Assembly (NCBI GenBank): GCA_003451675.1
Contig: DMCY01000075.1
Location: 1-55,659 of the forward strand
Source of the DNA: Candidatus Atribacteria bacterium
GTDB lineage: Bacteria; Atribacterota; JS1; SB-45; 34-128
DNA length: 55,659 nt
Reading direction: 5' to 3'
Both the position numbers and the translations under genes were made by a program. The notes below the pieces were generated by a model. The model searched no databases, was not told the origin of the DNA, and was given only the letters and a program-made list of their open reading frames with translations. Below, one piece after another: positions 13,674 to 47,296 of the stretch. Positions within the stretch are counted from its first letter, which is position 1. Each line of letters begins with the position of its first letter.

Positions 13674-15690
13674 TTTTATCCCCAATCTGATATTTATTTT
13701 TTAAACTGCTCAGCCTTTCCGTATTTATGTAGAAGCCCATTCTACCGTTTCTGAATCTTGCTTTACTAAATCCTAATCTCCTGATCCGATGATTGATTGC
13801 CCGATCGGAAATGGCTTCATTCTCTGATCGGAACTCATTGATGCGTTTTGAGATGGCCTGGGTTAAAAATTGCCTGTCCTGATTCTCCCGGTATTCATCA
13901 TTAATGGCCTTGACAATTTCTGCCTCCAATCCCATGCCTTCTTCATTATTTTTATTTTTTTGGATTTGTTTTACGATATCGATAAACTCGCTTTTTCTCT
14001 CCGGTTCGGTCATCAATAGCGCTTGATACAGAGGAAACATGATTTCATTCAACCTTCCCCGGGCAATATGCTGCGCTTCCGGCAATTCCTGCGACATATA
14101 GTTTGCCCGAAAAACGGTCAGTCTTTCTCTCAAATCATTAGCCCATTTTATATCAATCTTTCTTTCTATTTGAGGATTGCTATTTTTCTGCATGATAAAG
14201 AGGATGCACCGGCTTTCAATAATATCGGGAATGCTTTCGGTAGTGCAGATGACCAGCGGTGTAAAAGTGTCATAATATTCAATCTGATCTTCACCATATT
14301 TATTCAGGTTAATTCTTGATACTTTCAATCCCCGTTTATAGGTAGTCTTTATCAGGTCCGCAAGTCCCTGGTTTCCGCCTTTGCCCAGGAGTTTTATTTC
14401 ATCGATGATGAGAGTGGGTTTAAACAGTTCAACCGAACGAAATAAAGTTGCCTCGGTCAGGGAAGTTAATCTTTGAGCTCGAAAAGCCAGTTCGCTCAAG
14501 ACTTCACCGGCTCTCGATTTCCCCGTTTCCTTGACTCCGTAAAAATAGAGAATAGGGGTGGTGTTGAATTTTTCGATTAAATAAGTGTGAAAAATCCACA
14601 TAGAAAGAACCAGGTAATCTGAATCAAGCGGCATCTCCAAATAACTTTTAATAAAAGCGTCAATTTCAGTAGTAAGCCGTGCGATGTCTAAATTTAAAGA
14701 TCTGTTAATAATATTTGGATTCAGTATTTTAATGGGAAGATTCTGCTTGGGAGAATATCTTTTATCATCTTTAATAAAATATTCCTCGATGATCCATTGT
14801 CCGTTTTTGCAGAATAGATATTTGGTTCTTTCCTGATCCCTTACTAAATGAATAAGGTCAGGAACTATAGACTTTGTCCTGTTTTTTAATATTGGATTAA
14901 CCGACTTTCCAGTTCTTTCTTTTTTATCATATTTTTCAGGAATAAAATCAGGTGCTTCTTTGATCAATTGTAAAAGCTTTTCTTTAGTGTTGCCTTTTTC
15001 TTTTTCGAACCAATCGCTGATATCTTCTTTTTCTTCTAAACCGGGCAGTTTCAACCATTTGATTTTGTTGGCGATCCCCCGGAGAGACTGGCCAATCCTC
15101 TGGCAGTGTTGGTATCCCGGCTGGTCATTATCAGGAATAAGAATGACCTCTTTATCTTTTAGATATTTATTATAAGATGGTTTCCATTTTCCTGCTCCCA
15201 TAGGGCTGGTTGTAGCAGTGAATCCCATTCTTCTTAAGCTTTCGACATCTTTTTCTCCTTCTACAATCAAAACCGGCTCAACGGATTGGATTACTTCGGG
15301 CAGGTGATATGGTACCGGATTGACGCCCTTCATGTTCCAGATCCAATCATCATTTCCGTCCGGCCTTCTCTGGCTGAATCCTTTAGGATTGTATCGGACG
15401 ACCTGATAGAGTAAGTTTCCTTCTTCATCTTTATAATTATAAGTGGCGGCAATATTTCTATGATAGCTGTATTTTAATTTGCGGTATTTTGGATTATAAA
15501 GAAAACCGTTTCTATTACAGGTAAAACAGTGATATTTTTCTTTTACCTCATCAATATACAGATTAGGCCGGTTTTTATCCGGATGAAAAGGACACAGAGC
15601 TATCCAGTTTTTACCTTCTTTTTTAGTCGTTTCAACAGATACAATTCTTCTCGCTTGATTATCCCATAAATGAAAAATCCTACTTTTCAA
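13645..15690 (-). CDS. Element-encoded primase-helicase (CHC2 zinc finger, TOPRIM, P-loop ATPase)
   Basis: A 681-aa replication protein. Seen: a CHC2-type zinc finger with C33, H36, C55 and C58; a TOPRIM domain with VLIVEGEKDVESL near residue 142 and ILIPDNDQPG near 184; and a C-terminal ATPase with Walker A GVKETGKSRAG near residues 385-395 and Walker B TLIIDEIKLLG about 40 residues on. This matches primase-helicase proteins of plasmids, satellites and phages. The gene is very similar along its length to the copy at 43062-45101. AGGAGGGTAAG lies upstream of the ATG. The 3' end overlaps the 9-bp iterons. It implies the element replicates autonomously at some stage. Confidence 0.88.
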   Translation of the reverse strand: MKSRIFHLWDNQARRIVSVETTKKEGKNWIALCPFHPDKNRPNLYIDEVKEKYHCFTCNRNGFLYNPKYRKLKYSYHRNIAATYNYKDEEGNLLYQVVRYNPKGFSQRRPDGNDDWIWNMKGVNPVPYHLPEVIQSVEPVLIVEGEKDVESLRRMGFTATTSPMGAGKWKPSYNKYLKDKEVILIPDNDQPGYQHCQRIGQSLRGIANKIKWLKLPGLEEKEDISDWFEKEKGNTKEKLLQLIKEAPDFIPEKYDKKERTGKSVNPILKNRTKSIVPDLIHLVRDQERTKYLFCKNGQWIIEEYFIKDDKRYSPKQNLPIKILNPNIINRSLNLDIARLTTEIDAFIKSYLEMPLDSDYLVLSMWIFHTYLIEKFNTTPILYFYGVKETGKSRAGEVLSELAFRAQRLTSLTEATLFRSVELFKPTLIIDEIKLLGKGGNQGLADLIKTTYKRGLKVSRINLNKYGEDQIEYYDTFTPLVICTTESIPDIIESRCILFIMQKNSNPQIERKIDIKWANDLRERLTVFRANYMSQELPEAQHIARGRLNEIMFPLYQALLMTEPERKSEFIDIVKQIQKNKNNEEGMGLEAEIVKAINDEYRENQDRQFLTQAISKRINEFRSENEAISDRAINHRIRRLGFSKARFRNGRMGFYINTERLSSLKNKYQIGDKTEASEAYEA

Positions 15691-15740
15691 TGATTCTACT
15701 TACCCTCCTGACAAATGATTTAAGAATTATAAAAAAACAA

Positions 15741-15920
15741 TTACTTGATTTCTTCCGGCTTATCCTCATGAGCTATTAGAAAATTAAACAAGGCAGTCAT
15801 GTTTTGGGTGATTTCCCTGGCATCACGCATAGTGAGGGGAGTAGGGAAATAGGGCTGCCAAACTTGAATGGTCTTTTCCAGAAACTTCCTGGAATATCCG
15901 GGAGATATTTTTTTCGCCAT
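15741..15920 (-). CDS. Conserved 59-aa backbone protein
   Basis: I do not recognise this family. It is a 59-aa protein starting MAKKISPGYSRKF, with a conserved core WQPYFPTPL...DAREITQNMTALFNFLI. The copy at 45151-45330 has the same length and about two-thirds of the same residues, and the conserved reading frame shows that it is a real gene. AGAGGTGAAAACAT precedes the ATG. It is the first gene downstream of the paired palindromes and the start of the primase transcript. A small DNA-binding or primase-accessory protein is possible (inference only). Confidence 0.75.
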   Translation of the reverse strand: MAKKISPGYSRKFLEKTIQVWQPYFPTPLTMRDAREITQNMTALFNFLIAHEDKPEEIK

Positions 15921-15945
15921 ATGTTTTCACCTCTATATATAATTA

Positions 15946-15957
15946 GTGACATGTCAC
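15946..15957. promoter_or_regulatory. Palindromic operator candidate GTGACATGTCAC
   Basis: A perfect 12-bp palindrome followed by AGAGG, 26 bp upstream of the 59-aa gene start. It shares the GTGAC/GTCAC-AGAGG half-site with the 18-bp palindrome at 16029-16046. It is conserved at 45356-45367. Confidence 0.6.
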
Positions 15958-16019
15958 AGAGGACGAAAAAAAAGTGTCAGAAGCGTTGCAAATAAAGGAT
16001 TTTAATTTTAGAAAATAAT

Positions 16020-17795
16020 TTAGAAGGTCTCTGTGACGTCACAGAGGTTTTTAGTATTGAGCGGATCGGGGAGTAAGAAGAACTTGGTTTTATAGGCCTC
16101 ATATTTTACATAATCATAAAACGGAGGCTCGTTGATATTAAAGTAAGCCTTCAAAGATTCGGATAACCTTTGAATCTGTTTTCTTATCTTTGGAGTGGAA
16201 AGGGGGTGGGAGTCAACCTTTTTTCTATAAGTGGTTATTGTCCAGCTTAGATCTCCTCTATATCGCGCAAGATTATAAAATAATTCCCATTGCTTATTTG
16301 GTTTCCCATTCTTTTGGTTTTCAAAACCCATTTTCCGAAAATTTACTACCTTATTAAATTTATTAGGTGCTTGAATTTTAACTTTATCATAATCCAGGAA
16401 TTGTATAGTGATATGTTCCCACTTTGTATCAGGTGGAAGTTTTAATGGAGTTATTCTTTTTTGGGATGGGGTTGGCAATTGGTATAAAAATGGTATACAT
16501 ATTCCAAAGCTTTCTCCTTTTTCAAAGCTTTTAATAAGATTATCTACAAAGGGATAATATTTTTGTTTTAATAAATACTCTACATTCAAATACTCTTTTT
16601 TAATAAAGTCTAAAGTATCAGACATAAATTGTTTATTATTTATTATTTCTTTTTCGATTTTATTAAGTTCATTATTTAATTTATTTTTCATTTTATTAAA
16701 TCGTTTATTCTCATAATTATCTTCTACAAATTGGGCTAATTGATAATACGATCTGAATTTTCTTTGATAATTGAATTTTGATCCTTCTAAAATTGAATTC
16801 ATCGTATTTTTTTCAAGGGTCATTTTCTTAAATTTGCATTCCTCATATAAAAAGAAAATATTTTCTAATAACCCATTTAAGCCCCCATTTAATATATTGT
16901 TAAATAATTTAATTTCATCATATTTTTTTTCAATGGATGTTATAATTTGAAGATCTTTTTGTGAGAAATTGCTAAAAACTATTTTTGCACAATTTTTAAA
17001 CCAAACATCTTTATCGGTTGTTTCCAAAAAAAGATATTGATTAATTTCATTTAAAATCGTTTTTTTTAAGAATAAAAATTTATATCTCATATCTTCAATA
17101 AAACCAAGTTCTTTATAAGAAAATATTTTCGATAATGACACCGTTTTACATTTGCATTTTTTAAATTGATTGGTTTTATTTAAAAAATATTTTTTTAAGA
17201 AAAAATATGGATCACTACTTGGATTTTTTAATTTACTAAAATCTTTAATGTAAATCGGTATTTCTATTGGATAGTTCGGGGCTAATTTATAAAAAAGCCA
17301 TACACTGTCAGTAAAATTGTAATCAGGCCAGCCCGTTTCTATTAAAGATTTGCTATTATCTTCAATATACAAAGCAAAATTTTTATATAAGCAAGATAAT
17401 TCTTTTATTGTAAAATATGGAATAAGCCCGTTGTTTTCTTGATAAATCAGGTGTTCATTAGCATAGATTCCGTTGACATCGTCTAAATATATTTCTTCAA
17501 AAAAACCTAATGCACTTAAAGGGGAGAGATATTTTAGTGATTCTTCAAAATTTGGAGAGAAAAATATATTTGAATCGGCTCCAAAAGTATCGTTGGCAGA
17601 TAAAATATAATTTTTATCTAAATATCTTTTTCTTTTTGGAGTGATTAATGTTTTTTTTAAGATAAAGCAAATTTTATTGACAAAATATGCTTTATTGTTT
17701 ATTTCATTTAATGAAAAGCATGGGTTATTAGAATAATATTTTTCGTAAATATTATTAGCCTTCCTTTTAATTAATTCTTCAATATCTTTTTTCAA
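16020..17795 (-). CDS. Unrecognised 591-aa element backbone protein
   Basis: No family recognised. It is a soluble, lysine-rich 591-aa protein with no clear membrane segment and no Walker motif. A homologue of 603 aa lies at 45430-47241. Conserved blocks are KRKYLDKNYILSA near the N-terminus, LIETGWPDYNFTDSVW around residue 155, and a C-terminal ~110 residues with RGDLSWTITTYRKKVDSHPL and RLSESLKAYFNI that could hold a winged helix. The start is TTG at 17795 behind a promoter at 17831-17858. Position beside palindromes, iteron-like CCTGAT repeats and a primase suggests a replication-initiation or partition role (inference). Confidence 0.7.
   Translation of the reverse strand: MKKDIEELIKRKANNIYEKYYSNNPCFSLNEINNKAYFVNKICFILKKTLITPKRKRYLDKNYILSANDTFGADSNIFFSPNFEESLKYLSPLSALGFFEEIYLDDVNGIYANEHLIYQENNGLIPYFTIKELSCLYKNFALYIEDNSKSLIETGWPDYNFTDSVWLFYKLAPNYPIEIPIYIKDFSKLKNPSSDPYFFLKKYFLNKTNQFKKCKCKTVSLSKIFSYKELGFIEDMRYKFLFLKKTILNEINQYLFLETTDKDVWFKNCAKIVFSNFSQKDLQIITSIEKKYDEIKLFNNILNGGLNGLLENIFFLYEECKFKKMTLEKNTMNSILEGSKFNYQRKFRSYYQLAQFVEDNYENKRFNKMKNKLNNELNKIEKEIINNKQFMSDTLDFIKKEYLNVEYLLKQKYYPFVDNLIKSFEKGESFGICIPFLYQLPTPSQKRITPLKLPPDTKWEHITIQFLDYDKVKIQAPNKFNKVVNFRKMGFENQKNGKPNKQWELFYNLARYRGDLSWTITTYRKKVDSHPLSTPKIRKQIQRLSESLKAYFNINEPPFYDYVKYEAYKTKFFLLPDPLNTKNLCDVTETF
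16029..16046. promoter_or_regulatory. 18-bp palindrome CTCTGTGACGTCACAGAG
   Basis: A perfect palindrome overlapping the last codons (DVTE) of the 591-aa gene and about 100 bp upstream of the 59-aa gene start. Identical at 45439-45456. With the GTGACATGTCAC site it forms a two-site operator-like array in both elements. Confidence 0.6.
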
Positions 17796-17830
17796 TATTT
17801 GATACCTGAATTAAATTTGCAAACATAAAT

Positions 17831-17858
17831 ATTATAAGTCATTAGAATTAAAATTCAA
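17831..17858 (-). promoter_or_regulatory. Promoter of the 591-aa gene
   Basis: Minus strand: -35 TTGAAT (17853-17858), a 16-bp spacer and -10 TATAAT (17831-17836). The same sequence and spacing are kept at 47230-47257 upstream of the 603-aa homologue. Confidence 0.7.
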
Positions 17859-17897
17859 AATAAATAAGTTCATTGCTTATTTATAATCTCAATACTA

Positions 17898-17978
17898 ACC
17901 TGATCCCTGATATCCCCTGATTTATCCGGACATTTTTTACTAAAATGTCATTGCGAGGAGCGCAGCGACGCGGCAATC
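17898..17978. repeat. CCTGAT short repeats and REP-like unit
   Basis: Three closely spaced CCTGAT words (CCTGATCCCTGATATCC and then CCTGATT, about 17898-17921) resemble iterons and are partly kept in element C at 47297-47320. Immediately after, at about 17946-17977, is a REP-like unit GTCATTGCGAGGAGCGCAGC ending CGGCAATCCC. The remaining gap to 18172 has a conserved backbone end (GGAAAGTTTGAAATATATTT, about 18030-18090) shared with 47448-47510. Confidence 0.5.
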
Positions 17979-23061: not shown

Positions 23062-23190
23062 AAGAATTATGACAGGGGACCGTTGTTCTCTGTCACCCTC
23101 TGCCACCGATTTGGAAGAAAAGAGGAGAGAGGTAATAAAAGAGTGGATTAAATCCGGAAGGATTAAAGCGTGACAAAGAACCATTCCTTG
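23062..23190. repeat. Dispersed repeat copy 1 (partial)
   Basis: Begins with GACAGGGGACCGTTGTTCTC and ends with TGACAAAGAACCATTCCTTG, an inverted pair. The middle part (about 23112-23170) matches the 3' half of the long dispersed repeat (GGAAGAAAAGAGGAGAGAG, then a GAGTGGATTAAATCCGG segment). Other copies are at 25062, 26391, 52735 and 55496. Confidence 0.7.
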
Positions 23191-23239
23191 TCACAAATAT
23201 ATTTGTCTAAATTTTAAATATAAGGAAAAGCCGAATATA

Positions 23240-23482: not shown

Positions 23483-24528
23483 ATAACATAAAAAAATATT
23501 TTTTATCTATTTTTATAATCCTCTTTCTCTTGTCTTTTACTGCCAGTCTCTTTGCTCAGGATACTCTATCAATCTATTTTTTCGATGTGGGACAAGGCGA
23601 TTCCTCTATAATAATTGCTCCTGATAATAAAGTAGTAATGATTGATTCTGGTCCTGATGAAAGTTTAATTCTAAAATACCTGCAAAATCTTGAAATTTCC
23701 CAAATTGATCTTCTAATTGCTACTCATGCACATGCTGACCATATTACCGGCATGAATAAGATTATTGCAAAATATAAACCTAAGGCTTTTATTGATCCAG
23801 GGATACCTCATACTACCGCTACCTATCAGAGGATGATTACCGCTATTGATAAATATAATATTAATTATTATGAAGGCATTTCCCGGAAGATTAATTTGGG
23901 TTCTCTGAGTCTTACCATTCTTCCTCCAGCTACCCCTCTTATCAAAGGTTCCGAACTTAATAATAATTCTGTAGTGGTGCGGTTGGATTACAAAGACTTT
24001 TCCTGTTTATTTACCGGAGATATCGAAAAAGAGAGAGAAGGGCAGCTTTTAGCTGAATCGAGAGGTAATCTCAATGTAGATATTCTAAAAATAGCTCACC
24101 ACGGATCTTCCAGCAGTTCTTCTCCTCTCTTTATTAAATCAGTAGGGCCAAAAATAGCAGTTATCTGTTGTGGTCAAGGTAATAAATACGGACATCCACA
24201 TCAAGAGACCATATCTCTTTTACAAAGTTTGGGGATAGAAATATATCGGACAGATTTAAGTGGAACTATTTTAATAAAAACAGATGGTATAGATTATCAG
24301 ATCTTTACAGAAAAAGAAAGTATCAGAGCACCACCAGTAGTAAAAACCGAAACCAAGACTACCGAAACCCAAGAATATAAATATGCTGCTTCAAAAAAGT
24401 CAGAAGTATTTCATTATATTTATTGCTCTTACGTAAAAAAAATAAAACAAGAAGAGCTTATTTTATTTAAAACCAGAGAAGAGGCGATAGCTTCAGGAAG
24501 AAGACCTTGTAAGAAATGTAAACCATAA
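23479..24528 (+). CDS. Secreted ComEC/Rec2-like metallo-beta-lactamase-fold hydrolase
   Basis: A 349-aa protein. Seen: an N-terminal signal peptide (hydrophobic residues 8-26, ending SLFAQ); an MBL domain with FFDVGQGDSSII near residue 33, the metal motif THAHADHITG near 80-89, FTGDIEKE and IAHHGSSSSSSP near 213; and, after a linker, a C-terminal Ada-like segment with FHYIYCSYV and RPCKKCKP (residues 312-349) that could bind a metal. This resembles the soluble ComEC-type hydrolases thought to act on DNA outside the cytoplasm. The substrate is unproven. It is coupled to the DUF3006 gene. Confidence 0.85.
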   Translation: MNNIKKYFLSIFIILFLLSFTASLFAQDTLSIYFFDVGQGDSSIIIAPDNKVVMIDSGPDESLILKYLQNLEISQIDLLIATHAHADHITGMNKIIAKYKPKAFIDPGIPHTTATYQRMITAIDKYNINYYEGISRKINLGSLSLTILPPATPLIKGSELNNNSVVVRLDYKDFSCLFTGDIEKEREGQLLAESRGNLNVDILKIAHHGSSSSSSPLFIKSVGPKIAVICCGQGNKYGHPHQETISLLQSLGIEIYRTDLSGTILIKTDGIDYQIFTEKESIRAPPVVKTETKTTETQEYKYAASKKSEVFHYIYCSYVKKIKQEELILFKTREEAIASGRRPCKKCKP

Positions 24529-24556
24529 AAAATTATTAATTTGGAGGTTTTAAAGA

Positions 24557-25000
24557 TTGAAAAAAATATTTGTTATATTTACGTTTACAACTTTTATATT
24601 ATTTTTTATAGGTACTCCATGTATGGCCGAGCCTACTGTTAGTCCTGGGATATTTTGGAACTGTCTTGTAGAATTAGATAATGAGTATGGTGTTGAAATA
24701 TCTGAGGTGATTAAATCTTCATATATAAAAGGGATTGCTAAGGGTATTATGCTAACCATGACAATGATTGATTTAAATGAATCAGATCATGAAATAGTAC
24801 TTTTTAACTATAATTTTATAAATTCACATATCATAGAAATCAGTAAAGTTATGGATGATCTATATAAAGATCCAGCTAATGCCCTCATTAAGCTTGATTG
24901 GATGTGCCGAATTGCGTACAGTAAATTAAGAGGTGAGGATGTAGAATCGCTAATAAGAACAGGAAGAGCATTAGGCGAAATATTACCTGATAATTTTTAA
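24557..25000 (+). CDS. Secreted protein, unknown
   Basis: A 147-aa protein with an N-terminal signal peptide (KKIFVIFTFTTFILFF, cleavage likely after CMA at residue 24) and a mature part of mostly helical character with two cysteines. The start is TTG at 24557, nine bases after GGAGG. I recognise no family. It follows the MBL gene by 28 bp and is probably in the same transcript, so it may share an extracytoplasmic role. Confidence 0.6.
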   Translation: MKKIFVIFTFTTFILFFIGTPCMAEPTVSPGIFWNCLVELDNEYGVEISEVIKSSYIKGIAKGIMLTMTMIDLNESDHEIVLFNYNFINSHIIEISKVMDDLYKDPANALIKLDWMCRIAYSKLRGEDVESLIRTGRALGEILPDNF

Positions 25001-25061
25001 GAGATTTTATTTGAAGAATGATTTATCTTAATTACATATCAGGAAGATTTAAAAATAAAAC

Positions 25062-25262
25062 AGGTAAAACAGGGGACAGATAAAACAGGGGACGGTTCTT
25101 TGTTTGATAATACTCTAGTAGATAATTAGGATAATTAGGGACACCCATTTTCTTAAATAGAGAAGGCATGCCAGGTCAATAGTCCGGTAACTTTTAGGTT
25201 GTCCTGGAAGAAAAGAAGAGAGAAATAATAAAAGAGTGGGTTAATTCCGGAAGGACTGATAT
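25062..25262. repeat. Dispersed repeat copy 2
   Basis: Begins with tandem AAACAGGGGACRG words and GGGGACGGTTCTTTGT, then AATTAGGGACACCCATTTTC, GAGAAGGCATGCCAGG, the GTCCTGGAAGAAAAG segment and GAGTGGGTTAATTCCGG. The last third keeps an open frame of the type EEKRREIIKEW. The repeat ends a few bases before the ATG of the next gene. Confidence 0.75.
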
Positions 25263-25270
25263 GAAATAAA

Positions 25271-26038
25271 ATGAAGCAAATATTAGTTAATTTTCTAAAC
25301 TTTATGAACTTATTAAAAGTACAACCAATTACCTTTATTTCACTTTTTACAGCATATTATTTTTATAAAAGAAGTACTCGAAAAAAAGAAATACTTTATA
25401 CTAAAGTAAATGCAAAGATAAATCAAAATCATAGTAAGGGAATATCCGTTTTTACATCTAAATATAAAAATAAACCTGTAGGTAATATTACAGCAACTAG
25501 ATATTTATTGTGGAATAATAGTTCCCAAGCAATTCGTAAAATTGATATTGCACCGAGAGACCCTCTTCAATTCTCCACTGCTAATGGTTATGAAATTTTA
25601 GACGCGAAAATAATTTATCCTAAAAATTCTTTGAATGGCTTTATGTTATCTGAATTAAAAAAAACAAACACTTTTACTAAATTATCATTCGACTTTATTA
25701 ATGAAGATGAAGGAGCAATAATTCAAATAATCCATACTGGGGGAACTAATAATATACGTTTTAATGGAACGATAATTGATTTTAAAAAACCTGTATTTGT
25801 AGAAAAATATGATAATTTTGATCAAATTTTTGCACCCATTCTTGTTATTGGAATGCCAATAGCATTTTTCTTATTTTTGTTTTCTGGTGTATTTTTACAT
25901 ATGGTAAAAATTAGCAGTATTAGCGGATGGATCTTAATTTTAATTATGGCTGTAGGTAGCGTGAATATTTTGATTGCATATATAAGAAGGCTAATTCCGA
26001 AAAAATTTAGATCGACTTTAAATGAAAATTGTAAATGA
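25271..26038 (+). CDS. Membrane protein with central soluble domain, unknown
   Basis: A 255-aa protein. One transmembrane segment lies at residues 15-33, a beta-rich soluble region of ~145 residues follows (FTSKYKNKPVGNITATRY onward), and two transmembrane segments are at about 186-209 and 214-238. A basic tail ends it. No family is recognised. The start ATG lies directly at the end of dispersed repeat copy 2, without a strong ribosome site. Flanked by repeats on both sides, it looks like a self-contained cargo cassette. Confidence 0.6.
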   Translation: MKQILVNFLNFMNLLKVQPITFISLFTAYYFYKRSTRKKEILYTKVNAKINQNHSKGISVFTSKYKNKPVGNITATRYLLWNNSSQAIRKIDIAPRDPLQFSTANGYEILDAKIIYPKNSLNGFMLSELKKTNTFTKLSFDFINEDEGAIIQIIHTGGTNNIRFNGTIIDFKKPVFVEKYDNFDQIFAPILVIGMPIAFFLFLFSGVFLHMVKISSISGWILILIMAVGSVNILIAYIRRLIPKKFRSTLNENCK

Positions 26039-26156
26039 AAAGAGGAATTGGAGGAATTAGGGTTCACAACTTCACAAGATGTAAAACGAAAACAGAAAAT
26101 GGGAAGTTATAAAGTCCCTTTATTTTTAAAAAATAAATAAGAAAGGAGGAAGTAAA

Positions 26157-26366
26157 ATGAGCGGCAGAGATAATATAAGGAAAAAAATATACCAAGAGGA
26201 ACTTAATTTTATAAAAGAGGAACTTAAGAAAATTGATACTAGTATCAAAGAAATAACGTATACTGATACTATGAATATAGTAGAAGCTCAAATGAAATTA
26301 TGGGAACTAAGAGAAGAGATCATAAATAAAATTATAAATTCCGAAGACTTTATAGCTAATCACTAA
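26157..26366 (+). CDS. Small charged helical protein, unknown
   Basis: A 69-aa hydrophilic protein (MSGRDNIRKKIYQEEL..., amphipathic helices throughout) with an excellent AAAGGAGGAAGTAAA ribosome site, which supports it as a real gene. No family is recognised. It lies between the membrane protein and dispersed repeat copy 3. Confidence 0.55.
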   Translation: MSGRDNIRKKIYQEELNFIKEELKKIDTSIKEITYTDTMNIVEAQMKLWELREEIINKIINSEDFIANH

Positions 26367-26390
26367 TAAATAATTTATAAGAATATGATA

Positions 26391-26534
26391 ATTAGGATAA
26401 TTAGGGACACATCCCATTTTCTTAAATAGAGAAGGCATGCCAGGTCAATAATCCGATAACTTTTGGGTTGTCCTGAAAGAAAAGAGAAGAGAAATAATAA
26501 AAGAGTGGATTGATTCCGGAAGGATTGAAGATAT
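26391..26534. repeat. Dispersed repeat copy 3
   Basis: Near-identical in order to copies at 25139 and 52790: AATTAGGGACACATCCC, AATAGAGAAGGCATGCC, TCCGATAACTTTTGGG, GTCCTGAAAGAAAAGAG and GAGTGGATTGATTCCGGAAG. It lies between two cargo genes and carries a short conserved frame but no full gene. Confidence 0.8.
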
Positions 26535-26601
26535 AAATAGTAAATAAAAGAATACTACCAGTAAGTAAATATGCTTTACTAAAATTGAAAGAGGTTTTTG
26601 A

Positions 26602-27753
26602 ATGAAGAGAATTATTTTTATCTTATTGATTATAGTAGCCAGTTTAATCGTTTTTTCAGCTTTGGTTTTTGCTTCAGACACAATTAATGTAACAGAGTAT
26701 ATAAAGGATAAGTTTCCCCCGGCAGTTAGTCTTCATCTTTCTTCCCTTGATAATCTTGATTTATACGAAAAAGAATTTATTGATCTATTGGAGAAATTAC
26801 CAGAAGAAGAACAGGAATGTTATGCTAAAATGATATTTGAATATGGTTTTTCCGGGGAAATACTAGAAATTATTAAAGAGGGTAAACCAATTGCTGTTTA
26901 TGTTGAAGCTTACGACAAGGCATTAAATTTAGCAGAGAAGAGAGAGTATAAGAATGCATTGCCTTATTTAGAGATAGCGGCAGAAACAGATGTATCATCA
27001 TTAAAAGCTGAGGCATATCATGCAATTGGAGTCTGCTACGGGGAACTTAAATCTTATACAAAGGCGATAGAGGCGTACAAGCAGGCAATACTTTTTAAAC
27101 CCAATCACGTACTTGCCCATTACAACTTAGGTATTCTCTATCACAAGCTTGGTTTTTATGAAGATGCAATAGATGCTTTAAAGCAGGCGATCAGTATTAA
27201 TCCTGATTATGCCGATTCTTACTACGGTTTAGGTCTTGTTTATTATACTCTTGGTTTCAATGAAAAGGCAATAGAAGAGTATAAACAGGCAATCCGTATT
27301 AATCCCAATAATGCTAAATTTTATTGCAACTTAGGTGTTTCCTATCACAGTCTTGGTCTATATGAAGATGCAGTAAAAGCGTACAAGCAAGCCCTCAATA
27401 TTAATCCTGATGATATAATTACCTACAGCAATCTAGGTGCCGCCTATTTCAGTCTTGGTTTTTATGAAGATGCAATAGATATTTTAAAACAAGCGGTTAA
27501 TATTAACCCTGGTAATGCTAGGAGCCACTACAACTTGGGTGCTGCCTATTATAATCTTGGTTTCAATAATGACGCAATAGAAGAGTATAAGCAGGCAACA
27601 CTTATTAAAACTGATTATGCTACTGCTCATAAGGCTTTAGGTTTTTCCTATTATAAAATCGGAGATAGAGATTCTGCTTTAAATGAATATAAAATTCTTA
27701 AAGGATTAGATATTAATTTAGCGAATGAGTTATTGGATTTTATCAATAAATAG
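26602..27753 (+). CDS. Exported TPR-repeat protein
   Basis: A 383-aa protein with an N-terminal signal/anchor segment (residues 3-24, IIFILLIIVASLIVFSAL), a linker domain to about residue 110, then tandem 34-residue tetratricopeptide repeats of the form YNLGxxYxxLGxYEDAIxAYKQAIxINPxx to the C-terminus (about eight units). TPR arrays mediate protein contacts; the partner is unknown. A GAAAGAGGTTTTTGA site precedes the ATG. The repeat units are very similar to one another, suggesting recent internal duplication. Confidence 0.85.
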   Translation: MKRIIFILLIIVASLIVFSALVFASDTINVTEYIKDKFPPAVSLHLSSLDNLDLYEKEFIDLLEKLPEEEQECYAKMIFEYGFSGEILEIIKEGKPIAVYVEAYDKALNLAEKREYKNALPYLEIAAETDVSSLKAEAYHAIGVCYGELKSYTKAIEAYKQAILFKPNHVLAHYNLGILYHKLGFYEDAIDALKQAISINPDYADSYYGLGLVYYTLGFNEKAIEEYKQAIRINPNNAKFYCNLGVSYHSLGLYEDAVKAYKQALNINPDDIITYSNLGAAYFSLGFYEDAIDILKQAVNINPGNARSHYNLGAAYYNLGFNNDAIEEYKQATLIKTDYATAHKALGFSYYKIGDRDSALNEYKILKGLDINLANELLDFINK

Positions 27754-27807
27754 AAAATAATATTGAAAATAATAAAAATATATTAAAGGGATAAAGGAGG
27801 GTTTTTT

Positions 27808-28050
27808 ATTATAAAACTATTTAATAAATACATTAAAGATGAAGATAATTCCATACTGGAAGTTTATTGTGATAACATAAATAGAGATGAAATTAAAGGG
27901 CTTTTAGCATTACTCGAAAGAATTACATTTAAATATATCTCCGTTGATCCCAAAAGCATTAAAGCGGTCAAAACGGGCAATAATCGGGAAATATATCAAG
28001 CCCGGAAGAAATTAGAAAAAGAAGGATTTAGTTGGTCGGAAAAACCATGA
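27808..28050 (+). CDS. 80-aa protein with apparent ATT start
   Basis: An open frame of 80 codons ending TGA at 28048-28050. It lacks an ATG, GTG or TTG at its 5' end, but AAAGGAGGG (27793-27801) sits seven bases before an in-frame ATT at 27808 (ATA follows). The product begins IIKLFNKYIKDEDNSILEVY, contains an ISVDPKSIKAVKTG segment and ends KLEKEGFSWSEKP. No family is recognised. It is 55 bp after the TPR gene. Either it uses a rare ATT start, as known for infC, or the first codon has mutated. Confidence 0.55.
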   Translation: MIKLFNKYIKDEDNSILEVYCDNINRDEIKGLLALLERITFKYISVDPKSIKAVKTGNNREIYQARKKLEKEGFSWSEKP

Positions 28051-28115
28051 TTTACTAATAAGAAATAAAACAAAAAATATTGTTATTTTCTTCTGATTTT
28101 TTCTTTTTTTAATGT

Positions 28116-28167
28116 TATAATTATAAGCATAAAAGGGAGTGTGATCTCCGAAATTACACTCCCTTTT
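28116..28167 (+). promoter_or_regulatory. Extended -10 element followed at once by a stem-loop
   Basis: TGTTATAAT (28113-28121, TG-N-TATAAT) is followed ten bases on by a perfect 12-bp stem AAAAGGGAGTGT/ACACTCCCTTTT (28131-28142 with 28156-28167). The stem-loop could be the terminator of the preceding gene or the 5' end of a new transcript; the sequence does not decide between them. Confidence 0.45.
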
Positions 28168-28179
28168 AATATGGCTATG

Positions 28180-28215
28180 CCGAAAGATTTAACATATGTT
28201 TTTTTCGGTTTTTTT
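28180..28215 (+). terminator. Rho-independent terminator-like hairpin
   Basis: CCGAAA (28180-28185) pairs with TTTCGG (28203-28208) around an AT-rich loop, followed directly by seven Ts. It closes the + strand transcript that includes the TPR and 80-aa genes. Confidence 0.6.
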
Positions 28216-28347
28216 ATTAGGCTTAAATATTTTTTCAGTATCTCTTACCCAGTAAATTGAGGATCCTCTCTCTCTCTCTCTCTCTCATTAACCATTACCA
28301 TGCCAGGACGACTTTTCTCTAATATTTCACATTTAATTTAGCCTATA

Positions 28348-28537
28348 GTGGTTTAGTCTTATCCCCGTAAAAGAGAGATAAAAAATAAATGAAAAAATAA
28401 GAGCGGGATTTTTTTATCTCCCTTTTCGGTGGCTATATTTATCTGATTTCGTGCGATTGGCGATAAGTAAAAACATCCATAAATAAAATGTTAAAAGAAA
28501 AGAAACATTTTATTTATGTAGTTATTCACCTATCGCC
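28348..28537. repeat. Structured repeat unit U1
   Basis: Starts GTGGTTTAGTCTTATCCCCG. Hairpin 1: GAGATAAAAAA (28375-28385) with TTTTTTATCTC (28410-28420). Hairpin 2: GGCGATA (28459-28465) with TATCGCC (28531-28537), enclosing CATAAATAAAATGTT (28478-28492) with AACATTTTATTTATG (28504-28518). Related to U2 and U3. Confidence 0.8.
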
Positions 28538-28971
28538 AGAGAGAAGAGAAGAAGAGGAGAAAGAAAAAATCAAAGCAATAATTTAATCCACTCCTGCTAT
28601 CCCTAATTTTACAACTCAAACCACGCGCGGGGCGGGTAACTTTCCTTCCCCCTTCAATCCCCCCTAAGACCCCCCTCTTAACCCCCTTCTTTTTATTTTT
28701 GCTCCTTGGCTCAAAAGCTACGCTCGCAGGGACGCTTCTAAGTATAAATGCAGGTGTAACGCTCTTATGCCCCGCTGTTGCTTCGCTTTATTCACCACCG
28801 CAAAAAAATTAAGGTTAGGTTATCTATAATAGGGGGGAAGCATTAAGGGGGAAGGAAAAACTGCGGTCAATTCACCCCCTACTCTACAAGCATAAGCGTA
28901 GGCATTATCGAGACCCTCTCTCCCTTGCCCCGCCCCTATTTGCGAACCTTTTCGTGATTTTGCTATCGTTT

Positions 28972-29153
28972 GTGGTTTAGTCTTCTCCCCGTAAAAAAAA
29001 GATAAAAAGTAAAAGAGGGTAAATAAGCGGGAACTTTTTATCTTCTTTTCGGTGACTATATCCTTATGATTCTTTGTGTTTACGCGATAAGTAAAAAAGA
29101 CCTCAAAACAAAAAGAAAAACCCTTTTTGATTTAAGATTTTTTTACCTATCGC
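28972..29153. repeat. Structured repeat unit U2
   Basis: Same order as U1 with a different sequence in the stems: hairpin 1 AAGATAAAAAGT (28999-29010) with ACTTTTTATCTT (29033-29044); hairpin 2 GCGATA with TATCGC (29084-29089, 29148-29153) enclosing CAAAAAG/CTTTTTG. Pairing is kept although bases changed. Confidence 0.75.
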
Positions 29154-29439
29154 AAAGAGAAGAGAAGAGAGGAAAAACAAAGAAAGAGCAATACACTCAC
29201 AGGATAAATAGTAATTTACCCGATTAAGAGTATTGCCAGAGAGACCTGTCTGCGTGCGGATACGCACAGGCAGAGAAGCATAACACTCAAAAAATAATTA
29301 AAATTTAGGAAAAAAATTTGAATTATTTTTATCGTGTAATGCATAGATAAGACGAACGCTTAAAAGATATATAAGAAGGGAAAGACACCCCTCTTATATA
29401 TCTTTATTCTGATATAGAGTGTGCAGCAGTTAGCAAGCG

Positions 29440-29630
29440 GTGGTTTAATCTTCTCCCCGTAAAAGAGAGATAAAAAATAAATGAAAGAAATAATAGCAGG
29501 AATTTTTTATCTCCCCTTTCGGTGGCTCTATTTATCGGATTCCTTGCGGTTAAGCGATAAGTAAAAACATCCATAAATAAAATATTAAAAGAAAAGAAAC
29601 ATTTTATTTATGTAGTTTTCACCTATCGCC
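29440..29630. repeat. Structured repeat unit U3
   Basis: Closest to U1. Hairpin 1: GAGATAAAAAA (29467-29477) with TTTTTTATCTC (29503-29513). Hairpin 2: GCGATA with TATCGC around CATAAATAAAATATT and its complement near 29600. Spacing from U2 is shorter than from U1 to U2, so the repeats are not a regular array. Confidence 0.8.
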
Positions 29631-30384
29631 AGGGAAAGCCCATCTTTTTTCTTATCTTTGCAATTTCTTTTCCTGGCGTTTGTAGAAGCCAGTGCCGCAA
29701 AAAATTCTTATGCTTAAATTGTTTGCTTGCATTTTTTGCGGTGCTGAGTCTTCTATAAACGCCCACCATTGTCGCACCTGTAAGCTCTTGGGATAGTTTT
29801 AGTATTTTTTATCTGTTCTTCCCGGAGTGTACGCATGTAGGCAGATAAAAAATATTTAAACGTAGAAGTATAGTGAACAGGAACAGGGAGGGAAGGGAGG
29901 GGAGGCATTCGATTATCAGAAATAGAGATTTAGCCCTACGATAAGAAGTATCTCATTTAGCCCGCCTTTATATTTTTTACCAGGCTGAAAAAGCTTTTAG
30001 CTGGTTAAAAATATAATGCTTTTTTTGCTATACATAACAAAGTTTTATCGGATAAGATAAGCGAGAAATTATTTCTCGTAGAATGTCCGATAGAGTCTTG
30101 TTATGTATTGGCAGACTTTCGAATAAGCTCCTTAGCAAAAAAAGCTCCTGGCGGGCGGTCGTGGGGATGAGATGATCAGAAGTTATTTAACAGGAAGCAA
30201 ATAAAAGCAGGTTAACAGATTATTTTAATAAAATACCGGGGGAGAGAGAAAGAGAGGGCATCTACAATCGATTTTAAGGCACTTGTTTTTTGTTTGTTTA
30301 TGTTTATACCTTATGAAATTTATTACATTCTAGGTGGGGGATTATACCAAAATAGTGAAAACCACCATTTTATATAACATTTTT

Positions 30385-30421
30385 CGGATAAAAGGGAAAG
30401 CCTTGATTTCCCTTTTATCCG
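30385..30421. terminator. Bidirectional terminator-like hairpin
   Basis: A perfect 15-bp stem CGGATAAAAGGGAAA/TTTCCCTTTTATCCG (30385-30399 with 30407-30421), loop GCCTTGA. On the minus strand it is followed by AAAAATG, not a strong T run; it lies 28 bp beyond the GIY-YIG gene's stop and separates that gene from the structured locus. Confidence 0.55.
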
Positions 30422-30448
30422 CTGTTAGGCGAAGTAGCCACACATTAT

Positions 30449-31172: not shown

Positions 31173-31457
31173 TTTTATTTACCTCCATGGCCGTTTCGCC
31201 TAAATTAAAATAATTGAATTATTTTATTTATGCACGACGCTAGGTGAAGTTTCGAAAATTAACCACATAGATTCTTATGCTTATTATAACTAATTTTATT
31301 AATTTTACAAATAGTAGTTTTATATATAGGGTAAGTCAAGGGGCCCTTCTTGTATCGGAAAGGAGCCCTTTATAGTTTTATAGAATAAGGAGCATTTATA
31401 AGGAAATCAAAGAAATAGGAAGCTTTATACATTATAAAGGGCAATAATGTTCTAATA

Positions 31458-31486
31458 TTGACTATTATATGTATATATGATAATAT
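31458..31486 (+). promoter_or_regulatory. Promoter of the DUF1659 cassette with leader hairpin
   Basis: TTGACT (31458-31463), a 17-bp spacer and TAATAT (31481-31486). The ~75-base leader contains a 7-bp stem CCTCGAT/ATCGGGG (31526-31532 with 31536-31542) just before AAAGGAGGTG, which could influence translation. The rest of the 31173-31567 gap holds a GGGGC/GCCCT hairpin near 31340-31370 and no gene. Confidence 0.75.
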
Positions 31487-31567: not shown

Positions 31568-31795
31568 ATGGCAATAGTCGTAACAGTCCCTCGTGATTCA
31601 GCCTTACAGTTAAGACTGGTAGTAGGCACTAATCCGGATACCGGAGCACCTATCATCAACAGCAAGACCTTTAACAAGATCAAATCTACTGCAATAGAAC
31701 AGGATGCCTATGATGTAGCTACCGCTTTAACCGGATTGCAGAAGTATACCGTAGATGAAGTCAGATTCGGAAAAGAATCCGTACTTACTGAATAA
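31568..31795 (+). CDS. DUF1659 family protein
   Basis: A 75-aa protein with the DUF1659 pattern: SALQLRLVVGTNPDTGAPII near residues 11-30, SKTFNKIKSTA, then ALTGLQKYTVDEVRF. A near-consensus AAAGGAGGTGAAAAATA precedes the ATG. Family knowledge: DUF1659 genes commonly sit next to DUF2922 and YvrJ genes in Firmicutes, and their function is unknown. It is the first gene of a five-gene cassette. Confidence 0.85.
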   Translation: MAIVVTVPRDSALQLRLVVGTNPDTGAPIINSKTFNKIKSTAIEQDAYDVATALTGLQKYTVDEVRFGKESVLTE

Positions 31796-31841
31796 TCACT
31801 AATAATTATAAATCACAAATAAAGAAGGAGGTGAAAAAATA

Positions 31842-32120
31842 ATGGCAACCGAATTAGGAGAAGTAACCAGTTATAAGAGACTTTATATGCAGTTTAGAGA
31901 TAGTGTCGGAAAGACTACTAATCTAACTTTAAATAATCCTAAGAATGTAGATGATGGAGACTATGTGGACTTTGCGGCACAGGATGCAGCTATTGAAGGA
32001 GTTATGGATACTATTATCGCCAAAAATATCTTCCATAATAATGGTAATGACTTAGTGGCAAAAGTCAATGCTCGGATACTTGACTATAAATCTACTGATG
32101 TTATGGATGTAGGAGCTTAG
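31842..32120 (+). CDS. DUF2922 family protein
   Basis: A 92-aa protein with the DUF2922 pattern (YMQFRDSVGKTTNLTLNNPK, then AAQDAAIEGVMDTIIAKNIF). AAGGAGGTGAAAAAATA precedes the ATG. Similar in size and style to the DUF1659 product, 46 bp upstream. Between it and the holin gene is a GC-rich stretch with an imperfect hairpin (near 32135-32168). Confidence 0.85.
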   Translation: MATELGEVTSYKRLYMQFRDSVGKTTNLTLNNPKNVDDGDYVDFAAQDAAIEGVMDTIIAKNIFHNNGNDLVAKVNARILDYKSTDVMDVGA

Positions 32121-32186
32121 TATATTATAATATTCTTCCTCGGAGGGGACCGCGGACCTTCCCTGGGGGAGAGAAAGGAGTAATAA

Positions 32187-32549
32187 ATGATAGAAGCATT
32201 TGTCACTAAATATTTATTAGATTTCGCTCTTGTTTTTCTTGTTGGTTTGCTCTCCAAATTTATGATAAACAAGTTTGGCCAGGACAGGGCAGATAAAATA
32301 AAAGAGGCCATACTGGCGGCTATGCTTTGGGCCGAAGAAGAACTGGGGATAGGGAATGGTCCCGAAAAATGGAAAATAGCCTGGGTAAAATTAATTGAAA
32401 TATTAAGGAAACAAAAGGTTACCTTAAAAGAGGGTGAAATTTCCTATGTAAAGGACCTCATGAAAGCCACTGTTCCGGAGATTAACGAAAAGATATATAA
32501 GGCTATGCCGGATGTGGTAAGAAACGGTAGGACCTTAAAGTATAAATAA
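32187..32549 (+). CDS. Phage holin, LLH family
   Basis: A 120-aa protein with one transmembrane segment (residues 10-27, LLDFALVFLVGLLSKFMI) and a cytoplasmic helical part containing AMLWAEEELGIGNGPEKW, typical of the LLH holin family. It would form membrane lesions releasing a murein hydrolase. GAAAGGAGTAATAA precedes the ATG. It is followed by a murein peptidase gene two bases after its stop. Confidence 0.8.
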   Translation: MIEAFVTKYLLDFALVFLVGLLSKFMINKFGQDRADKIKEAILAAMLWAEEELGIGNGPEKWKIAWVKLIEILRKQKVTLKEGEISYVKDLMKATVPEINEKIYKAMPDVVRNGRTLKYK

Positions 32550-32551
32550 TT

Positions 32552-32941
32552 ATGGATATAATTAATGATATAGAATTAACTGAATATTTTTCTTTGCGTG
32601 AGTTTGAATGCCCCTGCTGCAGGCGGGTTATGTTATCACCGGACCTTCTGGTAAGATTAAATCATTTAAGGATGGTGATAAACAAGCCTATATATGTAAA
32701 TTCCGGTTACCGCTGTAAAGAAGAAAACAAGAAGGTCGGGGGAGTTCCCGGCTCTTATCATCTTTTGGGTATGGCGGCAGATATCCACGTAAAGGATTTT
32801 TTACTTTTTGATCTCCTTACTTATGCCCAGGAAATAGGTTTTAAGGGTATCGGATATTATGAAAAGGAAAATTTCTTACACCTGGATATTAGGCCTGGAC
32901 AAAAGCGGGTTTGGAAAGGAAGTCAATTAATTGGATATTGA
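32552..32941 (+). CDS. M15A family peptidase (endolysin-like)
   Basis: A 129-aa zinc D-Ala-D-Ala carboxypeptidase/endopeptidase-like protein. Seen: FECPCCRRV (extra Cys pair), YVNSGYRCKEENKKVGG, SYHLLGMAADIHV with the His and Asp metal ligands (residues about 68-80), and FLHLDIRPG with the third His near residue 110. It has no signal peptide, consistent with export through the preceding holin. The stop overlaps the next gene by 11 bases. Confidence 0.85.
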   Translation: MDIINDIELTEYFSLREFECPCCRRVMLSPDLLVRLNHLRMVINKPIYVNSGYRCKEENKKVGGVPGSYHLLGMAADIHVKDFLLFDLLTYAQEIGFKGIGYYEKENFLHLDIRPGQKRVWKGSQLIGY

Positions 32942-33134
32942 ATATGTACTAAAATTAATAGCAAATAACGGCTTTCCCCTGGTGCTTTCTGTATACCTAG
33001 TGTGGAAATTAGAGTTTTTTATTAACGAAATAATCAAGAATCAAAAGGAATTTTCCCGCAATGTTACTGCTGAAATCAAAGAAATTAAGCATGCAATCAA
33101 TGATCTGCGGGTTGATTTTGCTAAAAATCAATAA
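32931..33134 (+). CDS. YvrJ family small membrane protein
   Basis: A 67-aa protein with the YvrJ pattern: VLKLIANNGFPLVLSVYLVWKLEFF (a transmembrane segment with the GFP motif) and then a charged helix. The start is TTG at 32931, inside the M15 gene and behind GGAAAGGAAG. YvrJ is a frequent partner of DUF1659 and DUF2922; the three together with holin and peptidase make a compact operon. Confidence 0.75.
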   Translation: MDIEYVLKLIANNGFPLVLSVYLVWKLEFFINEIIKNQKEFSRNVTAEIKEIKHAINDLRVDFAKNQ

Positions 33135-39743: not shown

Positions 39744-40035
39744 AAGACTAGTTTCCAACGACACTTATTTTATTAATTTTAACTTAATATCGTAACCTGT
39801 ATGAAGGTAACAGGAGAGATTTTTTCTTATTTGGAAAAGGAACCGAAGGGGCAAGATACCAAAAGTATCCAAACTTTCAGGTAAAAGGACTGTTACCGGA
39901 CAGAACTCTGGAGAGCTTTATACAAGAAGCACTGACGATATATTCCTAACTATATATAATAAGATATTTAGGAGAAAATATTTTTCAGGTAAAGGACAGA
40001 GGAAATTGATTTATCATTTTTTGGAGGTGAGAAAT
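39744..40035. other. Gap with a gene relic
   Basis: A 292-bp gap. Near 39813-39948 an open frame without a start codon reads FLFGKGTEGARYQKYPNFQ and then LLPDRTLESFIQEAL before a stop. It may be the 3' remnant of a decayed gene whose family I do not recognise. The end of the gap holds the TTGGAGGTGAGAAAT ribosome site of the protease gene. Confidence 0.4.
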
Positions 40036-41039: not shown

Positions 41040-42598
41040 TCAAGTATTGATTATTTCTTCTAACTTTTGATACACTTTTTCAGTTTCATCAATCATGCAA
41101 AAGTTGCGAAAGTCGTCCTGTCTGGGGAGCCAGTTTTCATTTTGGCCACATTTGGCTATCATATAGAAGGGTGAACGCAAGGAAAATAAAAGCTTTCGCC
41201 CAGAAAGTAAAGGGTTCTGAAGTAATAAATTTATCAGAGCCCTTTTTTCTTTCACTTCAGAACTTTCAAATATCTCCAGAGCTCGATTAGCTAAATTAAG
41301 AATTTTGGGAGCGGTTATGTAAAAATTTTCATCTGCTTTGGTATGATCTTCTATTTGAATTAAAATATCCCTTTGCTTTTCTTTGTATTCTTTTACCTTT
41401 TTTAGATAGAGTTCTTCCGATATCAATCCATCAAGTTTATCATCATACATTTTACTGATACGATCTTCTAAAATATCATAATCTTTTTGTAATTTTTTTA
41501 AATTTTCCTGATGGAATAAACTTTTATTTTCGTGAATTCTTTTTAACTCTTTGGTAAGCCATTCTAAAATATTATTAGGTATCTGAATGCTCTTAAGAAC
41601 TTCATATATAGGTTTTAATAATTCTTCCTCTTTAACATAAATTCTTTTTTTATGAACTTTATGATAATTCGAACAGCTATAATAAGTATATTTGCCCTTT
41701 TTGATTTCAGGAGTAATCATACAGCCACACTCAGCACATTTTATAAGGCCGCGAAAAATGGCAGGTTTGGCAGCATATTGAAAAGGTTTTTTATGCCAAT
41801 TTTTCTTTACTTCCTGCGCTTTATTGAAAAGGTATAGAGATATTAGGGGATCATAGTGATGTTGGTAGAGATTCCCTTTTGCTCTCATTTGTCCGTAATA
41901 GAAGGGGTTTTTTAAGATCCAATCAATTTGACTCGTGGAAACAGGTTTATTTGACTTACTATTATTAGTTAAGCCAAGCTTTTTCATTTCTATTCCGATT
42001 ACACTCATGGAATAATTTCCGGTGGCATACATCTCGAATATCTTCCTAATATAGCGGGCTCTTTCGGGGTCAGGAATAATCGTTTTGTTTCCTTCTTCAT
42101 CCGCAGTATTAATGTATCCGATAGGGCTTTTGTAATCCATTCTCCATTTCTTAATTTTTGTTCAATACTCCGTTTAACATTATCACTTAACTGAAGAACA
42201 TAACTTCTTGCAAACATCACGCCCATATCCCAGCGAATTAAATCATTACTGTTTGAGTTTTGGTTTAGGATTAAATTTTCCCGGAAAAAGTGAAGTTCCA
42301 GTTTTCCTGATTTTCGGAAATCTTCTAAAATAACCGATTCTCGAAAGCTTCTCTGCAATCGGTCTACGGTATCAGTAATTAATGTAATTGGCTCCTTTGA
42401 GTGTCTTATAAGAGTAATAACTTTTTCGAATTCTTTCCGGGTATCTAAACAGGAGGATTCAGTAATTTGAAAAGTTTTATATACTGTTAATTGTTTTTTC
42501 TTAGCATATTCAGTCAGTCGCCTTACTTGAGCTGGAATGGAATAGCCTTCTTCTTGTTGCTCTTTAGTTGAAACCCGGGCTAAAATAATGGCTTTCAT
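41040..42598 (-). pseudogene. Large serine recombinase of element C, frameshifted
   Basis: The N-terminal part (42598 to about 42128) has the resolvase domain starting KAIILARVSTKEQ with catalytic Ser10. A -1 shift around 42124-42133 leads into the second frame (SPIGYIN, Recombinase domain, zinc ribbon CAECGCMIT with YYSCSNY, coiled coil). Joined, the protein would be about 519 aa. One base missing from an A run (ACAAAAGCCC) explains it; a sequencing error or programmed slippage is possible. The tail after WLP (RQDDFRNFC..., 29 residues) is encoded by element B's right end. AGGGGGATTAT precedes the start. Confidence 0.85.
41124..41130. other. Attachment-site core between elements B and C
   Basis: GGGGAGC, preceded by GCGAAAGTCGTCCTGTCT (right end of B) and followed by CAGTTTTCAT (left end of C). 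It encodes the WLP of the recombinase at the same place in the frame as in the tRNA-Asn copy. Confidence 0.75.
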
Positions 42599-42903: not shown

Positions 42904-43091
42904 CTGAAGCTTCTGAAGGTTCTGAAGCTTCTGAAGGATAGAGAAAGGTAAGAGGGCAGGGTATGCAAGAGCATAAACCTTTAAAACCTTTATATAGATA
43001 CCAAAGTTGGGTATATATACATCTTTCAGATTCTTCAGAAGAGTTATACACGCCTTTTATATTATCCTTCAGAACCTTCAGAACCTTCAGG
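42904..43091. other. Candidate replication origin of element C
   Basis: Four 9-bp direct repeats of CTGAAGSTT type (42904-42937) face an inverted cluster of three CTTCAGAAC repeats (43066-43091), with a further CTTCAGA pair near 43023-43041. A near-DnaA box TTATACACG (43044-43052) lies between. The inverted cluster encodes the PEGSEGSEG tail of the primase. The layout equals the element A origin although the repeat sequence differs (GAAGCTTAT there). Confidence 0.55.
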
Positions 43092-45101: not shown

Positions 45102-45150
45102 TGATTCTACTTACCCTCCTAATACTTTAATTAATTTTTTAATAGATCTG

Positions 45151-45330: not shown

Positions 45331-45355
45331 ATGTTTTCACCTCTATATATAATTA

Positions 45356-47257: not shown

Positions 47258-47296
47258 AAGATTAAGTTCATTGCTTATTTATTATTTCAATACTAA

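Follow-up and report, generated by a model that had tools for sequence, protein, structure and literature searches.

A candidate family of large, structured noncoding RNAs from the accessory DNA of Atribacterota

Between positions 27754 and 30444 of the window, by which we mean the whole 55,659-nucleotide stretch of Candidatus Atribacteria DNA analysed here (contig DMCY01000075.1), there is no open reading frame of at least 60 amino acids beginning with ATG, GTG or TTG, which confirms the claim of a first-pass annotation, made from the sequence alone, that the locus is gene-free. An 80-amino-acid gene that this annotation had placed to the left of the locus is absent from the list of open reading frames under those start codons, and the frames of 30–56 amino acids found within the locus cross its hairpins and lie on both strands. 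The raised local GC content and the ten or more stems of 10–15 bp that had been described were likewise recovered: GC is 0.33–0.44 over 28250–30249, against 0.26–0.36 over 24000–28249, and 14 perfect stems of at least 10 bp, with spans of up to 300 nucleotides, lie at 28340–30160, compared with 1.27 ± 1.29 (maximum 11) in 200 dinucleotide shuffles. Segments of the same length tiled over the whole window (n = 30) hold 0–5 such stems each, the exceptions being one with 8 at 16390 and the two that overlap the locus, with 8 and 11.

The structure of the locus is patchy. Windowed folding (40 shuffles per window) gave minus-strand z-scores of −6.9 at 29000–29199 and −7.5 at 29200–29399, where the plus strand reached −2.9 and −6.6, and plus-strand scores of −5.6 at 29600–29799 and −5.9 at 30000–30199; the lowest value among 80 control folds outside the locus was −2.8, and several 200-nucleotide windows of the locus itself (within 28500–28999 and 29700–29999) are at chance. 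Scans of the window region for promoters (10 found, 14.3 expected) and terminators (2 found, 3.1 expected) did not rise above chance. A minus-strand extended −10 element at about 30345 was considered as a promoter and set aside, being missing from the output of the promoter scan.

The first-pass annotation had read the 1.8 kb as a candidate for a single large RNA, a view not supported by the anatomy of the locus, which includes a triplicated unit, an inserted REP, a C-rich inverted repeat and a switch in the strand favoured by wobble pairs at about 29640–29670. Three degenerate copies of one two-hairpin module of about 190 nucleotides had been overlooked; on the minus strand these are unit 1 (28348–28545, 91% identical to unit 3), unit 2 (28972–29162) and unit 3 (29440–29640). 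Between units 2 and 3, also on the minus strand, lie a hairpin GCAATAC...GTATTGC at 29188–29236, kept in the related loci L002, L012 and L044, and two further hairpins at 29278–29342 and 29363–29405. The REP-type palindrome (29245–29273) is absent from L002 and has 15 matching places in genome G002, and the C-rich/G-rich inverted repeat (28641–28858) has arms at 28641–28666 and 28830–28858, of which the left recurs in L045 and the right, together with the block from 28686 on, in L002. To the right of the switch, on the plus strand, a long hairpin at 29675–29763 (3 G.T and no A.C cells in its two helices in the window), whose tip is exchanged in L002 for a different and still complementary sequence, and a second hairpin at 29796–29861 precede a 239-nucleotide domain at 29927–30165, hereafter the 3' domain. 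An attC-like palindrome at 30375–30438 marks the right-hand boundary and is probably not part of the RNA.

The strand assignment rests on mismatched cells in helices that were found without strand preference and counted by hand. Left of the switch A.C cells dominate, with 43 against 9 G.T over six sequences (G.T/A.C: window 2/14, L012 4/11, L002 3/8, L006 0/4, L042 0/4, L043 0/2), and to its right G.T cells dominate, with 37 against 8 A.C over five (window 10/1, L012 10/5, L002 11/1, L006 3/0, L041 3/1), the sequences in both sets being related rather than independent. A G.U cell can pair and an A.C cell cannot, so the left block is read as a minus-strand RNA and the right block as a plus-strand RNA, although neutral strand-biased mutation could mimic such an asymmetry. 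Folding energies run the same way: for the three copies of the unit in the window the minus strand is favoured by 10.6, 14.4 and 17.0 kcal/mol, and for the right part the plus strand is favoured by 16.6 and 14.8 in the window and by 39.9 in L002. The hairpin block at 29188–29236 has 11 G.U and 0 A.C cells on the minus strand, and 2 and 4 on the plus. For the units, 99.1% of cells pair on the minus strand and the fold is −49.9, compared with −34.0 for the plus; both-sided changes affect 6 of 48 pairs there, not clearly above shuffles (55 of 500), and 8 of 49 on the plus strand (0 of 500 shuffles), which is more than on the minus strand.

The 3' domain is a three-way-junction core of nested long-range helices (z −8.35 for 29917–30175), comprising P1 (29934–29942 with about 30157–30165), P2 (29960–29966/30150–30156), P3 (29968–29983/30001–30016), P4a (30018–30030/30133–30145) and P4b (30030–30054/30084–30108). 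R1, a covariance model built from four sequences, matches 4 of 50 Atribacterota genomes, including a new and divergent one (G033; full-length match, 35.4 bits, E 3.3e-6), and R2, built from five, matches 5 of 50, adding G049 at 36.3 bits through the P4 arm only. Folding and inspection by eye give this first G049 copy an outer stem, a hairpin resembling P3 and a P4 whose 3' side bulges by 25 nucleotides, as it does in the window; a second copy in the same genome (G049b) was found via a sequence pattern and scores 19 bits over its full length (E 2.4e-4). Seven copies of the 3' domain are known, in six genomes, the window included: they lie at 29927–30165 of the window, L002 1751–1989, L012 5171–4925 (minus strand), L041 1555–1794, L085 1501–1707, and L091 5924–6159 and 2342–2169 (the latter on the minus strand). 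Folded alone, the cores of G033 (z −6.8 plus, −5.0 minus) and of the first G049 copy (−7.1 plus, −6.0 minus) take the same shape, which is support independent of any alignment. The minus-strand folds are extreme as well, and in the first G049 copy the minus strand is slightly better in energy (−95.3 against −93.9), so that single-sequence folding leaves the strand unsettled.

In a five-sequence alignment, A8, which was fitted to the model and so favours the structure, pairing is kept in 98.6% of 359 cells and both sides are changed in 23 of 75 pairs, including pairs of helices 1, 3 and 5 whose partners lie 113–273 columns apart; none of 500 shuffles has as many (shuffles 4.6; slid versions 2–3). 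Each of the 23 changes is confined to a single sequence, which the pair types indicate to be the divergent G033 in nearly every case, and a plain MAFFT alignment, with one helix misplaced, gives 11 of 74 pairs and an unfavourable covariation term of +3.48. The expectation that homologues would keep the stems is thus upheld by the divergent copies in G033 and G049 with their compensatory changes, less strongly in the unfitted alignment. Compensatory changes in simple hairpins can also come from template switching at the DNA level. P4b is the most sequence-conserved helix, with 16 of its 23 pairs never varying; this points to a surface for binding or, should the domain act as DNA, to a recombinase core. 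The two halves of the core are 94.5% and 89.0% identical between the window and G030, genomes that share 74% in dnaG-rpoD, and the apical loop is 69% identical; as judged from these sequences, the high identity may reflect constraint, transfer or both.

In G033 and G049b the junction ends a colinear gene-free stretch of about 750 nucleotides, which begins right after the same 146-amino-acid small lipoprotein gene and is identical between the two at 551 of 699 aligned bases. Each folds better on the plus strand (−280.9 against −259.5 for G033 and −281.3 against −237.5 for G049b), as does the consensus of the two sequences (−181.3 against −145.9), in which the pairs changed on both sides number 11 for the plus and 5 for the minus strand; the G033 stretch has z −14.4 on the plus and −12.3 on the minus strand (20 shuffles each). 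Compensatory changes in long-range helices, as expected of a structured noncoding RNA, were found both in A8 and in this consensus, and more weakly in the plain MAFFT alignment. A structured 3' UTR or terminator, with the hairpins protecting or ending the mRNA of the preceding gene, would explain why the region begins where the lipoprotein gene ends; the first G049 copy and the window locus do not lie beside that gene in the lists of open reading frames, and with the terminator scan also at chance we regard this as very improbable.

The 5' hairpins of these relatives align to the minus strand of the window from 29422 leftwards, as far as 29274 for G033 and 29180 for G049b (1 and 3 of 400 shuffles as good, respectively), with the window hairpin at 29363–29405 aligned to the first hairpin of the 750-nucleotide stretch and that at 29278–29342 to one within its 5' domain. 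These alignments make it probable, though not certain, that some of the left block of the window is a rearranged 5' domain, and the window seems to carry a rearranged and expanded version with an inserted REP. The 5' part of G049b also aligns to the plus strand of the left block (2 of 400 shuffles as good), which weakens a reading by inversion. In the most far-reaching form of that reading, a long shot in our judgement, an inversion would have put the 5' domain on the minus and the 3' junction on the plus strand, and both would be selected, made divergently and assembled in trans as a split large RNA, perhaps with the multiplied unit building an oligomeric RNA particle.

Some part of the locus is held at E ≤ 1e-8 by 7 of 50 Atribacterota genomes, four of them having only fragments in differing contexts, and by one of seven genomes of another phylum (G002, locus L006). 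The genes flanking L006 match none of the 50 Atribacterota genomes and, among the seven of its own phylum, only itself, results equally compatible with transfer between phyla and with misbinning; several copies lie on contigs under 9 kb, so that binning errors are possible. Over dnaG-rpoD (2943 bases) G003 is 94% identical to the window (1614 bases found), G036 93%, G001 (the Atribacterota genome to which L002 belongs), G037 and G039 90%, and G034 87%. The close relatives G034, G036, G037 and G039 (87–93%) have fragments only, the piece in G036 standing at a contig end, and the locus therefore seems to decay fast. L002 has exchanged whole helix tips with complementarity kept. Eleven pattern hits were made on genome contigs, of which three are real (L002, L006 and L012); the other eight, absent among the best 40 alignment rows to the units, were judged chance. 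A distant blastn search of 50,697 phage records with 28200–30445 gave no match, nor did a search of a plasmid collection with the locus, and six pattern scans of viral contigs yielded nothing beyond one match (L001), judged chance from its sequence. A likeness between the window and L091 in CCCGGAGTGYACG was also judged chance, by hand estimate.

This distribution bears on whether the locus consists of stacked remnants of palindromic mobile DNA, of the MITE or REP type, and is functionless as a whole. Lone blocks do occur elsewhere, namely the unit in G039 (L042), the hairpin block 29276–29436 in G037 (L043) and the left edge in G034 (L045, which is without unit 1 and whose junction is not a clean empty site); a REP is inserted in the locus, and L002 has the start of a presumably transposase-like gene (Pfam gave no match) whose frame enters the block. 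Copy number is low, however: the unit query matches 9 of 50 genomes at E ≤ 0.001 (six only at E ≥ 2e-4, among them the real piece in G036), the 3' domain sequence 3 of 50 and the left block 28579–28970 2 of 50, and many copies per genome were found only for the inserted REP, in G002. The order of shared blocks is, moreover, the same in the window, L002 (which is without one hairpin) and L012 (which begins inside unit 2), the core is 89–94.5% identical to that of G030 despite the divergence in dnaG-rpoD, and A8 has long-range covariation. We consider the remnant reading improbable for the locus as a whole; it is weakened for the 3' domain, likely for the REP and still a candidate for the units.

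The main rival takes the 3' domain to be a folded single-stranded DNA recombination site, in which P4 would present a Xer/dif-like core (TACATAA, a short variable centre, TTATCG) and through which the element would insert or resolve by means of host Xer recombinases. CTX-phi attP and integron attC are sites of this kind and share with P4 a hairpin with conserved arms and a variable centre. TACATAA-N6 to 8-TTATCG with a varying centre was found at seven sites (the window, L002, L012, L041, L085 and both strands of L091), the copies in G033 and G049b carry AGTTTACATAA, which we take to be identical to the XerD arm of dif in B. subtilis, G033 has a gene 5.5 kb from its core whose translation looks like a tyrosine recombinase, and the locus is bordered by attC-like palindromes. 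Unlike those recombination sites, though, the domain has further covarying helices, P1, P2 and P3, which would be superfluous for such a core, and about 520 nucleotides of extra structured sequence are conserved alongside the junction in G033 and G049b. Because of these helices and the strand-specific wobble, RNA is favoured over a DNA site, and we hold the recombination-site reading to be unlikely, if worth keeping in mind.

We therefore propose, with a probability of about 0.6 and from sequence comparison, that the locus is a candidate for a new RNA family of Atribacterota, large, structured and noncoding, that is carried on accessory DNA. The pairing of the 3' domain is conserved, the wobble is strand-specific, there is no match in Rfam and the distribution is patchy; the clearest evidence for RNA comes from the 239-nucleotide 3' domain and the 750-nucleotide version in two relatives. 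The clearest form, in G033 and one of the two G049 copies, would be an RNA of about 750 nucleotides whose 5' domain has some five long hairpins and whose 3' domain is the three-way junction. In the clade of the window the 3' domain and two upstream hairpins would be on the plus strand, next to a putative minus-strand block of hairpin modules, one of them triplicated and part of them related to the 5' domain. The locus would be transcribed and act as RNA, and its gene would be accessory, non-essential and carried by mobile DNA. No single conserved gene was seen downstream of the copies, which makes a cis-regulator unlikely; the most likely role, put forward tentatively, is that of a scaffold which might bind protein or other copies of the RNA via the sequence-conserved P4 arm. 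If the proposal is right, the class of very large bacterial RNAs would gain a further family of similar size, which shows covariation across nested helices and comes from the accessory DNA of a phylum that is largely uncultured; a seed alignment and model are available for finding more members, and the switch of strand and the triplicated module would illustrate the gain and loss of domains in RNAs of this kind.

GOLLD, ROOL and OLE are families in the Rfam library. At gathering scores Rfam gave no match to the locus in the window or in L091, L092, L002, L012 and L041, the covariance models of these three families included, the only matches in the scan of the relatives being c-di-GMP riboswitches in L091; at relaxed E-values nearly all matches were to eukaryotic or viral families, with tmRNA and Phe-leader, and all but a riboswitch were far below threshold. 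OLE RNA is ornate and roughly 600 nucleotides long, and resembles the candidate RNA in ornateness and in length, though its model is unmatched here. GOLLD is encoded by phages or prophages, often near tRNA islands; here there is no phage or viral match, and tRNA-Asn at 11565, some 17 kb away, is the sole tRNA of the window. ROOL is also characterised by a homo-oligomeric nanocage. According to one report (PMC12286853), the very large structured RNAs known from bacteria are few, GOLLD, ROOL and OLE among them, and their functions are poorly understood; GOLLD, a large structured RNA of phages and prophages, has a conserved 3' region and a less conserved 5' region, and the imaged member of ROOL measures 659 nucleotides. 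The candidate RNA shares with GOLLD the large structured form and the contrast between 3' and 5' regions, and with ROOL the similar size and accessory location; it differs from both in matching neither model, from GOLLD in the lack of a match in the phage records and from ROOL in the lack of a tRNA island. The proposal of the first-pass annotation that it is a new member of the GOLLD/ROOL class therefore stands as a likeness of kind (large, structured, on accessory DNA) and falls as family membership. A literature search by title and abstract, which is no proof of absence from print, returned no paper on such an RNA in Atribacterota.

The locus is flanked by two primase modules (13634–17936 and 43051–47335) that share 83% identity across 4.3 kb. 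A serine recombinase gene lies next to each of them (11625–13091 and 41040–42598, of which 41040–42140 was scanned), and these duplicate modules are perhaps tandem integrative elements. A neighbouring cassette, 31568–33134, begins 1.4 kb from the core; of the holin/peptidase label given to it earlier the M15 peptidase is upheld by Pfam, which also identifies DUF1659 and DUF2922 genes, and the holin has no Pfam match. A look-alike, by translation only, was seen in G033 (L092 5810–6983), with apparent counterparts of the DUF2922, M15 and final genes at 2.1 kb from the core and in another relative orientation; the stretches examined of L002, L041 and L012 either lack such a cassette or stop short of it.

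The attC-like palindromes, of the GCCTAAC...GTTAGGY type, occur in the window at 30375–30438 and 31190–31250, in L012 at 2238–2317 and in L017 at 1891–1985, and flank short minus-strand genes, one encoding a Pfam 4-fold beta-flower protein. Beside them a noncoding stretch at 31250–31470, conserved in L002, L041 and L017, has a promoter-like site TTGTAA-16-TATAAT on the minus strand. An integron-like cassette array in Atribacterota is a possible reading of these palindromes and short genes; the idea was set aside, since a strict attC scan of 12 sequences passed only the site at L012 2238–2317 and failed that of the window, and an integron integrase above the curated cut-off was found in one of 50 genomes (G005, with one internal stop). 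Tyrosine recombinases L079 (G039), L080 (G030) and L081 (G045) match both ends of the integron-integrase model and not its middle, and L079 and L081 have a copy of the window's attC-like hairpin sequence nearby.

A sequence of about 60–150 bp is repeated five times in the window (23112–23196, 25131–25259, 26387–26528, 52780–52938 and 55487–55648) and forms the end of an open reading frame in L012 (7306–7932); it may, on this resemblance, be a C-terminal tail common to several genes. Two c-di-GMP-I-type riboswitches lie on the minus strand of L091 (5468–5554 and 1712–1799), on the same 6.2 kb contig as two copies of the RNA, and a glycine riboswitch lies in the window at 39801–39902.
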